From positions 1-41,589 of the forward strand of contig NZ_KE384192.1 in the NCBI RefSeq assembly GCF_000424445.1: 41,589 nucleotides of DNA, read 5' to 3'. This DNA is from Oribacterium sp. NK2B42. Its GTDB lineage: Bacteria; Bacillota; Clostridia; Lachnospirales; Lachnospiraceae. Position numbers and translations under genes: made by a program. Below are positions 18,888-26,522 of the stretch, piece after piece (the stretch's first letter is position 1; each line of letters starts with the position of its first letter). The notes beneath the pieces are model-generated. The model did not search any database. It saw nothing but the letters and a program-made list of their open reading frames with translations, and was not told where the DNA came from.

Positions 18888-19838
18888 TTGAAGAAGAACA
18901 AAAAAGACGGAATCTTGCTTGAGTCCGGTACGAACGAAATTGAGATCATGAAGTTCAAGGTCATGAATGAGTACTATGGCATCAATGTTGCCAAGGTTGT
19001 AGAGATCATGATGACGGAGAAGGTTAAGCCTATGCCTCATTCACATCCGGCAGTTGAAGGTTTCTTCAAACCAAGAGATGTTCTCATCACAGTTATCAAC
19101 CTGGGACAGTATCTCACAGGCGAACGTAAAGAATATGGCGAAAGAGACCTGTTTATCATTACAGGCTTCAATAAAATGATGGTGGCTTTCCGTGTTGACA
19201 GCATTGAAGGCATCAGCCGCATATCCTGGAAGAGTATACAGAAGCCGGATAAGACCTTGGGTTCCGGTGACCAATCCGTAGCCACAGGTATCGCGCAGTG
19301 TGACGATCAGCTTGTAACAGTTCTGGATTTTGAAAAGATCGTAGCTGAGATTGCCCCTGAAACAACTATTCAGGTTTCAGAGATTGATGAGATGGGTGAC
19401 CGGCCTATCAATGAGGCACCTGTTGTTATTGCAGAGGATTCTGTCCTTCTTCAGAAGATGATACTTGATTCTCTCCAGAGAGCGGGCTTTACGGATATCC
19501 ATATGTTCAACAATGGACAGGAATGCTGGAATTATCTGGATGAGATCAGGGAGGATCCACATGTTTATGAACAGGTCAGCATCGTTATCACTGACCTTGA
19601 GATGCCTATGATGGATGGACACAGGCTTACGAAGCTTATTAAGACAGATCCGCATCTTCGTCATATTCCGGTTGTTATCTTCTCATCGCTTATTGATGAG
19701 CAGATGCGTGCAAAGGGTAAGGAGCTTGGCGCCGATGAACAGCTTTCCAAGCCTGAGATCGGACATCTGGTTCATATCATGGATACTCTTATCAGCAGAT
19801 ATGAAGAGCAGAGAAAGAATGATTTTAAGGGCGTATAA
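18888..19838 (+). CDS. cheV: Chemotaxis scaffold/adaptation protein CheV
   Basis: CheV joins a CheW-like coupling domain to a receiver domain and links receptors to CheA. Residues about 15-160 are CheW-like (EIEIMKFKVMNEYYGINVAKVVEIM, then VITVINLGQYL). Residues about 180-305 are the receiver, with acidic residues in VIAEDSVLLQKM, the phosphate acceptor Asp236 in IVITDLEMPMMDG, and Lys in LSKPEI. The start is TTG 18888, supported by AGGAGG 10 bases upstream; it agrees with the family N-terminus. It ends the flhA-cheV unit before a clear terminator. cheA, cheB, cheR and cheW are not in the window. Confidence 0.95.
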   Translation: MKKNKKDGILLESGTNEIEIMKFKVMNEYYGINVAKVVEIMMTEKVKPMPHSHPAVEGFFKPRDVLITVINLGQYLTGERKEYGERDLFIITGFNKMMVAFRVDSIEGISRISWKSIQKPDKTLGSGDQSVATGIAQCDDQLVTVLDFEKIVAEIAPETTIQVSEIDEMGDRPINEAPVVIAEDSVLLQKMILDSLQRAGFTDIHMFNNGQECWNYLDEIREDPHVYEQVSIVITDLEMPMMDGHRLTKLIKTDPHLRHIPVVIFSSLIDEQMRAKGKELGADEQLSKPEIGHLVHIMDTLISRYEEQRKNDFKGV

Positions 19839-19854
19839 TCGTCTATATTTGTTG

Positions 19855-19886
19855 GGGCAGGTCTGGTCAGGAACCTGCCCTTTTTT
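19855..19886 (+). terminator. Rho-independent terminator after cheV
   Basis: GGGCAGGT (19855-19862) pairs with ACCTGCCC (19873-19880) and is followed at once by six T residues. It lies 17 bases past the cheV stop and should end the long flhA-fliA-cheV transcript. Confidence 0.9.
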
Positions 19887-19912: not shown

Positions 19913-19998
19913 GTACCACCGGGGACGGTTCTTGCCGGGAGGGACGGTTCTCTCCGGAGAGAACCGTCCCTCCCGGCAAGAACCGTCCCCGGTGGTAC
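19913..19998. repeat. 86-bp perfect palindrome built from an 11-mer
   Basis: The arms 19913-19955 and 19956-19998 are exact reverse complements over 43 bases with no loop; the centre is TCTCCGGAGA. Each arm contains two copies of GGGACGGTTCT (19922-19932 and 19941-19951, mirrored at 19960-19970 and 19979-19989). It is markedly richer in G+C than its surroundings. It ends 21 bases before the start of the next gene, just ahead of its GGGAGGA ribosome site. Repeats containing GGGACGGTTCT recur in many bacterial genomes, some near REP-type transposases; I recall this but have not checked it. No transposase is in the window. Confidence 0.95.
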
Positions 19999-20019
19999 TG
20001 GACTAATAGGGGGAGGACT

Positions 20020-20991
20020 ATGAAACAGAACAGGATAACTTTGGAGAATGGGATGCTCATCATCATATTAATTCTTTTGATGGTATCTGTGTACTCCCAT
20101 AGGGCATCAGCCGAAAGCTGGGTTTATGAAAAGGGAAAATGGTACTATTATACCTATGATGAACCTGTGGAAAAGCAGTGGATAACCTATGGCGGAAATG
20201 AGTACTATATCGGTTCACAAGGTCTCATGTCTACGGATAAATGGGAAAAGGATCCGGATACCGGTAAAACATATTATGTGGGGACCAACGGAATCAAACA
20301 AAGAAATGTCTACACTGCAAAAGGAGACAAGTTTGTGGGTGATGACGGAACCGAACTTGTCACCTTCGATGACTGGAGAAAGGATGCAAAAAAGAAGCTT
20401 AAAGAGGTGATCAAAGCCTTAAACAAGAAACAAACCGTTACCTCCGATCAGAAGGCCTTACTGGCTCAGTACAATGCCTCTAACGCGGCATTTACACTTT
20501 ATGATCTAAATGGAGACGGATTCAGAGATATAATCGTAATAAATAAAGAATCCTCAGATAATCAGGTATTGGATATACTTCTCTGGAATCCGGATGAAAG
20601 AGAATTTTATGCCATCATGGAGCTGGATTTCATTTCGGATGAAAGTGCAGTGCTAAAAAGAGAACCTCAATATGGAAATGCCTGGGCTATCGTAACCAGG
20701 GGTGTAAATGATATTTCTTTTTGGCAGTTAAAGCTTCATGAATATAATTTTAATGATGTAGAACACTACCATTTCGGTTATAATGAATATGGAGACGTAA
20801 TTTATTATATTGATGATGGTGAAGTGGAGGCCGGCTATTGGAATACCTCACTTATGGAGATGACACGACAGGCCGGATCAGGTATATTTACAGATTATTA
20901 CGACCTGAATGAAGCTTCCATCAACGCGCAGGTGGATGCATACCCTCTGGATGCAGAGCTTTATCTGTTCCAGGAGGCAGACACGGATTAG
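20020..20991 (+). CDS. Secreted protein with cell-wall-binding-type repeats and Asp-rich loop
   Basis: The start is ATG 20020 with GGGAGGA upstream; the longer open frame from 19615 runs through cheV, a terminator and the palindrome, and is rejected. The 323-residue product has a signal peptide (hydrophobic IIIILILLMVSV region) with a likely cut after ASA near residue 29. Next come about 65 residues of aromatic repeats (WVYEKGKWYYYTYDE, YGGNEYYIGSQGLMS, GKTYYVGTNGIKQ), like choline/glucan-binding modules. The C-terminal 200 residues contain LYDLNGDGFRDIIVI, an EF-hand-like calcium loop also seen in FG-GAP-type proteins. I do not recognise the full protein. It shares the aromatic repeat style with the genes at 34124 and 35591. 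Confidence 0.75.
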   Translation: MKQNRITLENGMLIIILILLMVSVYSHRASAESWVYEKGKWYYYTYDEPVEKQWITYGGNEYYIGSQGLMSTDKWEKDPDTGKTYYVGTNGIKQRNVYTAKGDKFVGDDGTELVTFDDWRKDAKKKLKEVIKALNKKQTVTSDQKALLAQYNASNAAFTLYDLNGDGFRDIIVINKESSDNQVLDILLWNPDEREFYAIMELDFISDESAVLKREPQYGNAWAIVTRGVNDISFWQLKLHEYNFNDVEHYHFGYNEYGDVIYYIDDGEVEAGYWNTSLMEMTRQAGSGIFTDYYDLNEASINAQVDAYPLDAELYLFQEADTD

Positions 20992-24650: not shown

Positions 24651-26522
24651 ATGAATCGTACAGTATTTGAAGGACGGTACCTTGTAGATCTTGTGGGGGC
24701 GTTGATTAAACAGAAGGATTTTACAAAAAAATCCATGAGGATGGATTGGGAGAGGTTATTCCATCTTGCCGACTATCATAAGATCGCCAATATCGTATAT
24801 ATCGGTATGCTTGGGGCTTCAGGACAGATCCCGGAGAAGTGGGGAGCAAGGCTTTATGAACGATATCAGGAAAGTCTTATGTATTCCACAAGCTATGAGA
24901 ATTCCGAGCTTGAGATCCTTACAATGCTTAATATGCATAAAATATCCGCAACTGTTCTTGAGTCCTCAGCTACGAGACGCCTTTACAGGATTCCGGAGAG
25001 CGCCAGCAACAGCCCCCTGAGACTCCTTATGGGTGAAAAGGATTACAGCCTTGCCAAGGGTTTTCTCATCGATCTCGGTTACCTCACAGATCACTTTTAT
25101 CCGAAGTTCGGGGAGCATATGAGAGCGGGCAACGGATTTACGGTAGAAATTTACTATAAGCTTCCTTTCATTACAAAGAATTATCAGAAGTGCATGACCT
25201 CTCTTATGGAGAGAGCCTATATAGACAAAACCTTCGAGTCCATGCATACCTTTTCTCTGGAATCAAGCTTTGTGTTCCGTATGGCTGAGGTCTGTTACAA
25301 TTATTGTGAGGATGCACTTACCATTCGTAAGCTTCTTGATGTTTTTCTCTTTTATCATCAGTTTAGGTCCAAGATGAATCAGGATTTCATCTGGGCAAGA
25401 TTTAAAGAGTTTAAGATCGATGTCATAGCCGAATGCATGATACATATTTCCTCAATATGGTTTGGCACAAGAGCCGATGATATGCCGGAGCTTACCATTG
25501 AGGATGCGGATATTTATGACAATATAGAGAGCAGGATCCTGAGCAACGGTGTCATCGGTTCAGACATGGTTAATCAGTCAAGCGCTTTGAGAAATGATAT
25601 ACAAAGGGAGCTTGATAAAGAAAAGCGCCAGGAGGAAAAGGAACTCCGCAAACAGGAAAAGGGAGAATTCTGGCATAGATTAAAGCAGGAGATTCTTTGG
25701 ATATTCCCTGAATATAAGTATATGAGTTCCCTGTATCCAACACTCGAAAAGGTGCCTGTATTGCTTCCGGTTTTCTGGATCATTAGAGGCTTCAGGATGA
25801 TAAAAGAGATGATGGGCTTTGGATCATCCAGAAAAAGGGACGCTTCTAAGGAGCTTAATAAGGAAGCTTCCAAAACATCCTCCGGGAAAGCTGCTTCAAA
25901 GGGAGGTATATCGTATCTTCCGAGGGAAACCAAAACCACCAAGGCTCTCAAGGAAGAGAATATGGGTGGCATGGCGGTCTCTTATGAAGACAACAGCAGG
26001 TCAGGAAGGATTTATGATTCTGTTCAGGCTGACAGAGAGCAGAAGTCAAGGCTTGAAGAAGAGATCAAAAAAAGTGCAGGTGATAATGTTACTGAAGATG
26101 ACTTCAGGATGGACGAAAATGCAGAAAGCTCTATAGGTCTCTGGGAGTTCCCTAAACTTAAGAATGTTCAGGAGGATGCAGCGCCTATACAGAAGCAGAA
26201 TACTGTGACAGAAAAATCCCGGAATGAAAAACCTGAAGAATACGAGGGAAACGATCTTCTGGGCATGGATGTGTCACTATTCAACAACATTTTATCCAAC
26301 GAAAAAAACAGAACCTCCGATAGGGTGACCATAGTTCCGGAGTATACGGATTCAGGAAAGCTTGAGTACAGTTTTACAAAAGAGGGAGCATCATCAAAAA
26401 CTGAAAGACCGCAGGAGCCGGAGATAGTTGTGGCTCAGGATGAGAATCACAATTCCATAGGTGTTCAGAAGTGGCACTTTCCTACGTTGGAGGAAGTGGA
26501 AGAGAAGGAAAAGAATTCATAG
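24651..26522 (+). CDS. Degenerate nucleotidyltransferase-fold protein with charged C-terminal half
   Basis: The start is ATG 24651, with AGGAAGGAAAG upstream; a longer open frame from 24447 crosses two hairpins and is rejected. Of 623 residues, about 1-310 resemble the 'nucleotidyltransferase family protein' NTP_transf_5 fold. A helical N-terminus leads to TVLESSATRRLYRI, SPLRLLMGEKDYSLAKGFLIDLGY and IYYKLPF. The usual Lys-Gly and Asp-x-Asp positions read Glu-Ser and Leu-Arg-Leu-Leu, so catalysis is doubtful. Residues about 320-623 are mostly Lys/Glu/Ser-rich and probably disordered. They include two copies of a short W-x-FP-x-L motif (IGLWEFPKLKNVQE and QKWHFPTLEEVEE). The function is unknown; the fold call is tentative. 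It sits between the filament-cap unit and the convergent csrA. Confidence 0.55.
   Translation: MNRTVFEGRYLVDLVGALIKQKDFTKKSMRMDWERLFHLADYHKIANIVYIGMLGASGQIPEKWGARLYERYQESLMYSTSYENSELEILTMLNMHKISATVLESSATRRLYRIPESASNSPLRLLMGEKDYSLAKGFLIDLGYLTDHFYPKFGEHMRAGNGFTVEIYYKLPFITKNYQKCMTSLMERAYIDKTFESMHTFSLESSFVFRMAEVCYNYCEDALTIRKLLDVFLFYHQFRSKMNQDFIWARFKEFKIDVIAECMIHISSIWFGTRADDMPELTIEDADIYDNIESRILSNGVIGSDMVNQSSALRNDIQRELDKEKRQEEKELRKQEKGEFWHRLKQEILWIFPEYKYMSSLYPTLEKVPVLLPVFWIIRGFRMIKEMMGFGSSRKRDASKELNKEASKTSSGKAASKGGISYLPRETKTTKALKEENMGGMAVSYEDNSRSGRIYDSVQADREQKSRLEEEIKKSAGDNVTEDDFRMDENAESSIGLWEFPKLKNVQEDAAPIQKQNTVTEKSRNEKPEEYEGNDLLGMDVSLFNNILSNEKNRTSDRVTIVPEYTDSGKLEYSFTKEGASSKTERPQEPEIVVAQDENHNSIGVQKWHFPTLEEVEEKEKNS

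Follow-up and report, generated by a model that had tools for sequence, protein, structure and literature searches.

An 86-bp perfect palindrome beside cheV in Oribacterium sp. NK2B42, a probable four-unit member of a dispersed, RAYT-associated repeat family

The palindrome and its setting

The window (the whole stretch of DNA analysed, 41,589 nucleotides of Oribacterium sp. NK2B42) carries cheV, whose product has CheW and response regulator domains and whose stop codon ends at 19838, followed by the gene of a 323-aa protein starting at 20020. Between the two genes, positions 19913-19998 are exactly self-reverse-complementary, with 43-nt arms and a loop of 0. The palindrome, its arms, its coordinates and the repeated 11-mer had been described in a first-pass annotation, and all proved correct when recomputed on the window. 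The features of the locus are as follows.

19913..19998, no strand: 86-bp perfect palindrome, a four-unit (++--) repeat element (own reverse complement computed)
19922..19932, + strand: unit 1, motif GGGACGGTTCT (motif scan)
19941..19951, + strand: unit 2, motif GGGACGGTTCT (motif scan)
19960..19970, - strand: unit 3, motif GGGACGGTTCT, inverted (motif scan)
19979..19989, - strand: unit 4, motif GGGACGGTTCT, inverted (motif scan)
19919..19992, no strand: five CCGG joints, starting at 19919, 19935, 19954, 19973 and 19989 (positions computed)
20009..20019, + strand: ribosome-site-like GGGGGAGG with spacer, outside the palindrome (by eye and fold prediction; ATG at 20020)

The locus reads GTACCACCGGGGACGGTTCTTGCCGG, the inner units and CCGGTGGTACTGGACTAATAG, in that order. 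The CCGG joints may be regarded as self-complementary short stems common to adjacent units, an arrangement that would make the palindrome loopless. With up to one mismatch, GGGACGGTTCT has one further place in the window, at 25837; the resulting five matches compare with 0.44 expected, and none of 100 shuffles reached five. Only one more perfect palindrome in the window has an arm of 10 or more (arm 11 nt); in 10 mononucleotide shuffles the arms reached 8 at most. When folded, the palindrome is predicted to form a hairpin with 41 base pairs and a loop of four bases. As to the upstream terminator of the first-pass annotation, a hairpin-like shape is visible by eye near 19853-19886, and the terminator scan did not list it. 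The sigma-70 scan returned one site, within cheV, where shuffles give 0.7. Six Rfam matches (E up to 1) all scored under their gathering scores and were taken as chance; five were miRNA models on the palindrome (best mir-3122, 50.8 vs 92) and the sixth was mcrA at 20213-20239 (16.4 vs 57.6).

The repeat family and its transposase

In the whole genome (G000; 3.79 Mb in 95 contigs) the 11-mer occurs 84 + 85 times, against 1 + 1 for the pattern reversed. These copies, and those counted in other genomes of the genus (below), contradict the prospect, entertained in the first-pass annotation, of a palindrome found only once and in none of the relatives. When the element was searched for together with 10 bases of flank per side, there were 92 matches, most of them places that matched on each strand. 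The organization of the copies was analysed in 40 stretches round listed places plus the window (669,953 bases), chosen for holding matches; the clusters were drawn among the first 100 motif places listed and are a sample rather than a whole-genome census. A cluster was defined by at least one exact motif, with one mismatch allowed for its further motifs. The inverted doublet is the main form in these match-selected stretches, as 46 of the 61 clusters are two-unit '+-' elements. The others comprise five '++-', one '+--', two '++--' (the window copy among them), one '+++', two one-way arrays with 13 and 8 motifs, and four motifs that stand singly. No perfect palindrome in the sampled stretches is longer than the window copy, the runner-up having an arm of 32 nt. 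The motif is contained in 19 of the 23 perfect palindromes with an arm of at least 16 in stretches L078-L117. Fifty-four of the 61 clusters lie outside ORFs of at least 150 aa and seven within them (these ORFs cover 82% of the sequence). The family is thus a short palindromic repeat, in high copy and mostly extragenic, as is characteristic of REPs. Judged by their result lists, literature searches on strings from the motif (main texts) returned no paper apparently on bacterial repeats, and those on REP, RAYT and Clostridia no paper naming the motif. A second palindrome family, with GGGGACGGAGTT, was observed at L110 9869-9912, and also in the sequence that L261 has inserted at the site of L081.

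Y1-type transposases, to which the first-pass annotation had pointed, are present in the genome, and the gene of one is bracketed by motif copies. This gene (C1:192934-193725) encodes a 263-aa Y1/HUH transposase (Y1_Tnp match 2.4e-16), and the copies lie at C1:192793-192822 and 193744-193773. The protein has the TnpAREP class 2 signature, with the HUH motif NHVH and Y133ILQNP (Y---NP). A C-terminal helix-turn-helix (HTH_3 at 232-260) scores 22.3 bits, slightly below the cut-off of 23, and was counted as present; this extension aligns in L118-L123 and L128. The NCBIfam model REP_Tyr_transpos gives the protein 54 bits, under the curated cut-off of 80, and a PDB sequence search yielded no match at 0.001. 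Eight clusters lie in the 11.4 kb round the gene, where about 0.27 would be expected in 12 kb (Poisson 5e-10) if the genome is assumed to hold 85 elements. A second RAYT, on C10 (L063 1231-2621), is without the HTH extension and scores 80.7 bits with REP_Tyr_transpos; the motif was not found near this gene (L144), and two small genes beside it are presumably a RelE-type toxin and an HTH antitoxin. Separately, 22 of the 30 Y1_Tnp matches of the genome are, by our own reading, no more than 10 bases away from the end of a contig (L051, L053-L057, L059-L062 and others), which suggests that the assembly is interrupted by a multi-copy element of the IS200 type.

The association of motif and transposase extends to other organisms. 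Among eight named relatives of the transposase (35-39% identity), six have GGGACGGTYC near the gene: on both sides in Formimonas, a Clostridia MAG and two Atribacterota MAGs, with the right-hand copy 2.7 kb away in an unclassified bacterium, and on one side in a Clostridiaceae MAG whose gene starts at a contig end. The Peptoniphilus and Neofamilia relatives have no GGGACGGTYC near the gene, and the C-terminal extension is also absent from them. The 30 best profile-search loci (own included), scored within 400 nt with one mismatch allowed, have the motif on the left in 23, on the right in 22, on both sides inverted in 20 and on at least one side in 25. It was not found near the genes of the HTH-bearing relatives L131, L132 and L135. 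Exact units, 74 of them distinct, came from 37 of the 60 loci obtained in the transposase searches. The flanks of the motif pair over a mean of 5.65 bases in these units, compared to 2.99 (sd 0.15; largest of 500, 3.46) with the right flanks re-dealt; 46 of the 74 have a stem of at least 6, and 57 different left 8-mers occur among them. Since the flanks pair while the left 8-mers vary, the word of the motif is constant and its stem variable.

Across 398 genomes of the phylum, that of NK2B42 included, motif copy number tracks the type of transposase described above. Motifs were counted in all of them. The transposase profile was built from eight proteins with the motif (seven) or the variant GGGACGCTTC (one) beside the gene, and was therefore aimed at the motif-bearing subfamily; 117 genomes were positive at E <= 1e-30 and the rest were taken as negative. 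At least 10 motif copies are present in 63 of the 117 positive and 17 of the 281 negative genomes (odds ratio 18; p 2.5e-25, a value that is too small because the genomes are related, the profile is aimed at the motif subfamily and the own genome is in the sample). At least 40 copies are present in 22 of 117 and 1 of 281, respectively, and the reversed-motif control stayed at or below 7 across the 398 genomes. Fewer than 10 copies occur in 54 of the 117 positive genomes. Copy numbers in 17 genomes of the same genus are 169 in G000, 121 in G001, 174 in G011, 73 in G013 and 9 in G005, with 0-2 in the other twelve. The motif was not found near the matched transposase of G001, G011 or G013, and that of G013 is without the HTH extension. 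Therefore, either copies outlive their cognate gene or the gene lies in unassembled sequence. At the place in G013 that matches the C1 locus, the transposase is missing and an interrupted element is found. Two further genomes are recorded here: G025 has 60 motif copies and no transposase match, and G447 has 69 copies and no match in the profile search.

Sister species and competing explanations

The cheV locus was compared among 14 relatives. In two sister species, G011 and G013, most of the palindrome is missing from the same place.

19939..20001, no strand: missing in sister G011, 63 bp (GG at the join; equivalent placements possible; counted by hand)
19929..19992, no strand: missing in sister G013, 64 bp (CGG at the join; equivalent placements possible; counted by hand)

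The G011 site has TTGCCGG directly joined to ACTAATAG, with the left unit and TTGCC as in NK2B42. The G013 site reads ATACCACCGGGGACGGTGGTAT; both outer ends are kept, and the outermost pair is changed on both sides. Because outer ends are retained, the two sites would be deletions and not early forms. An alternative deletion product, CCACCGGTGG, occurs once in G011 and not in G000 or G013 in the stretches examined. Since shortened remnants are present at this site in both sisters, the element is probably older than their divergence. Inner units like those of the window copy were seen at the cheV site in none of the other assemblies. G009, G010, G014, G015 and G016 have cheV followed by the same gene (by eye), and the element is absent; the remaining loci are more diverged or have another neighbour. 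Judged from these sequences, the palindrome is dispensable at the cheV locus, because its middle is gone from two sister species, and in at least five further ones the neighbourhood is the same but holds no element. The statement of the first-pass annotation that a palindrome so retained must have arrived recently or have a use under selection is not supported: two sisters have shortened remnants at this site and keep the downstream gene without the middle.

Of the 61 elements of NK2B42, 10 have a matching place in the stretches examined of G011 and 12 in those of G013, some of these orthologous placements being poor, with negative gaps. Both sisters have an empty site at L090 5575. Among eight orthologous pairs of two-unit elements, a set that counts site L079 twice (against two species), there are differences at 26 of 176 pair positions; 10 of these changed on both arms, compared to 1.8 expected (p 2e-7); seven of the 10 are Watson-Crick in both species. 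Addition of a ninth pair, L089/L281, which has one-sided changes only, gives 10 of 30 vs 2.0 expected (p 1e-6), and omission of the indel pair from this larger set gives 9 of 26 vs 1.7 (p 1.6e-6). Such co-change of the arms is as template switching would give, and selection for pairing would also yield it. The middle unit of the L112 element is flipped in G013. A scar, CCACCGGGGACGGTGG, occurs four times in G013 (L285, L286, L287, L288) and 0 times in nine other same-genus genomes searched. Both flanks match an element of NK2B42 in two of the four (the window site and L099); in a third only the left flank does, beside the L078 array, and the fourth has a left flank alone, in L089, at a place with no listed element of NK2B42. 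The scar join differs in position from longer CCGG repeats. A segment bounded by two elements, L082 12857-14400, is inverted relative to both sisters (L253, L267), which have other sequences at the breakpoints. Two side observations belong here. At the L082 18362 element about 2.7 kb is absent that is present in both sisters. In G011, L253 about 895-945 has outer arms AAAACCACC/GGTGGTTTT as in one element of NK2B42 and a different palindromic core with GGGAGCAGTT, reflecting either core exchange or a second repeat family.

Four other accounts of the palindrome were weighed. The strongest of them, itself improbable, is a family of protein-binding or structural sites (cruciform, nucleoid or gyrase site) kept for its function, the link to the transposase being secondary. 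The extragenic bias and the selection for pairing that could underlie arm co-change would fit this account, as would the distribution over gaps of at least 80 bp (between ORFs of at least 100 aa), in which convergent gaps are occupied more often (13 of 38) than gaps that are tandem (38 of 221) or divergent (3 of 36); the window element is missing from the tandem list, which we attribute to a long overlapping ORF. However, the number of copies varies from 0 to 174 among the 17 same-genus genomes, and beside transposase genes it is the motif that is constant while the stems differ. Somewhat less probable still is a selected cis-acting leader hairpin that controls the downstream secreted protein as a switch, stabilizer or roadblock. 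Its location between cheV and the ATG and the strong fold of the 174-nt region (-105.5 kcal/mol, z -11.3) speak for such a hairpin. Yet the ribosome site is outside the predicted palindrome hairpin, being unpaired in the centroid and, in the minimum-energy structure, partly engaged in weak local pairing. The gene is kept in G011 and G013 without most of the palindrome and in the five relatives that are devoid of it, and the same element recurs at many unrelated sites. The expression switch of the first-pass annotation thus finds no support in the fold predictions or in the persistence of the downstream gene without the palindrome.

MITEs are often short dispersed palindromes, and the element could on this ground be a non-autonomous MITE of another transposase, or else have been delivered by a phage or plasmid. 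We consider this quite unlikely: the motif-bracketed gene is a Y1 gene, the window element is unmatched in plasmid and phage collections at E 1e-5, and its two-unit core has 0 exact matches in viral contigs. The least probable account is an assembly artefact, in which a shorter element was joined to itself by folding back. Assembly classically produces perfect inverted repeats as artefacts, and this is a draft in 95 contigs. Against it, the separate assembly of G011 has the same left unit with TTGCC, that of G013 retains both outer ends, and elements with two or three units are found again at orthologous sites of independently made assemblies. The 'mobile REP/MITE-like unit' among the proposals of the first-pass annotation fits best, given a dispersed, mostly extragenic family and a bracketed Y1-type gene; its mobility is putative. 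The palindrome is very probably a four-unit member of a dispersed RAYT-associated repeat family of the REP/REPIN type.

Proposed mechanism and relation to known systems

The family, the bracketed transposase and the phylum-wide tracking together argue that the repeat is of the REP/REPIN type, belongs to a RAYT and has a distinct signature, GGGACGGTTC. The element would work like a REPIN. Each unit would consist of GGGACGGTTCT between short complementary stems, which are CCGG in this genome, and the standard element of two inverted units, about 42 bp or more. The window copy would have two units per arm with shared CCGG joints, and hence no loop. The HTH-bearing Y1/HUH transposase may mobilize, or may once have mobilized, the inverted pair as single-stranded DNA, and the number of units and the identity of the arms would have changed later through hairpin template switching in replication. 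At its present place the window copy would be tolerated and not selected. A broader proposal is tentative, its chances falling a little short of even: the HTH-bearing RAYTs of Bacillota and Atribacterota may have one common recognition word, GGGGACGGTTC, with a freely diverging hairpin stem, adding a third to the REP signatures GTAG and CGTC, and the G013 scar CCACCGGGGACGGTGG may be a footprint of enzyme-directed excision and not of slippage.

The bracketing of the own transposase gene by motif copies, with both-sided copies likewise at 20 of the 30 best loci (own included), is as in RAYTs. Inverted pairs of short repeats, hairpins, extragenic location, clustering at RAYT genes and compensatory changes are shared with REPIN/REP doublets as described in the available portion of PMC3116915, which also reports asymmetric excision footprints for REPIN/RAYT. 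Unlike the REPINs of that portion, the units here carry GGGACGGTTC as their signature, next to a short stem or inside it, are joined without spacer via CCGG and have no GTAG foot. The GTAG/GTGG foot of canonical REPs is essentially missing: within 16 nt before the motif, GTAG and GTGG each occur at 1 of 92 ends of two-unit elements, and within 12 nt at transposase loci, at 5 and 7 of 74 units, respectively. The mark of CGTC-tagged REPs, an unpaired CGTC at one hairpin end, is likewise missing on the side counted: directly 5' of the motif, CGTC was found at 0 of the 92 ends and in 0 of the 74 units; CGTC is present on the complementary strand within the motif.

The transposase is probably of the TIRYT/TnpAREP subclass 2.1 kind. 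The accessible part of PMC3733652 describes for TIRYT/TIRtron a transposase with a C-terminal HTH, flanking inverted repeats that contain GGGG and, in some species, repeat families, all of which resemble the present case. In contrast to TIRYT, the flank consensus published there, GGGG[AT][CG]A[CG], is found in 0 of the 74 units, and GGGGACGG in 55. For subclass 2.1, the 2018 survey (PMC6006769), in the sections at hand, reports no REP-like sequences near the genes; unlike in that survey, the flanks here are hairpin units repeated through genomes. A fixed-word hairpin repeat would thereby be provided for HTH-bearing RAYTs, a type without REP-like sequences nearby according to those sections. 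The genus allows the growth of palindromes, the homogenization of arms, loss and element-bounded inversions to be traced site by site. Arm homogenization and spacer inversion are given as the marks of template switching between inverted-repeat arms in the consulted text of PMC8604942, which concerns yeast coding genes, unlike the dispersed bacterial repeat studied here; as in that work, both types of change are seen here, between sister species.
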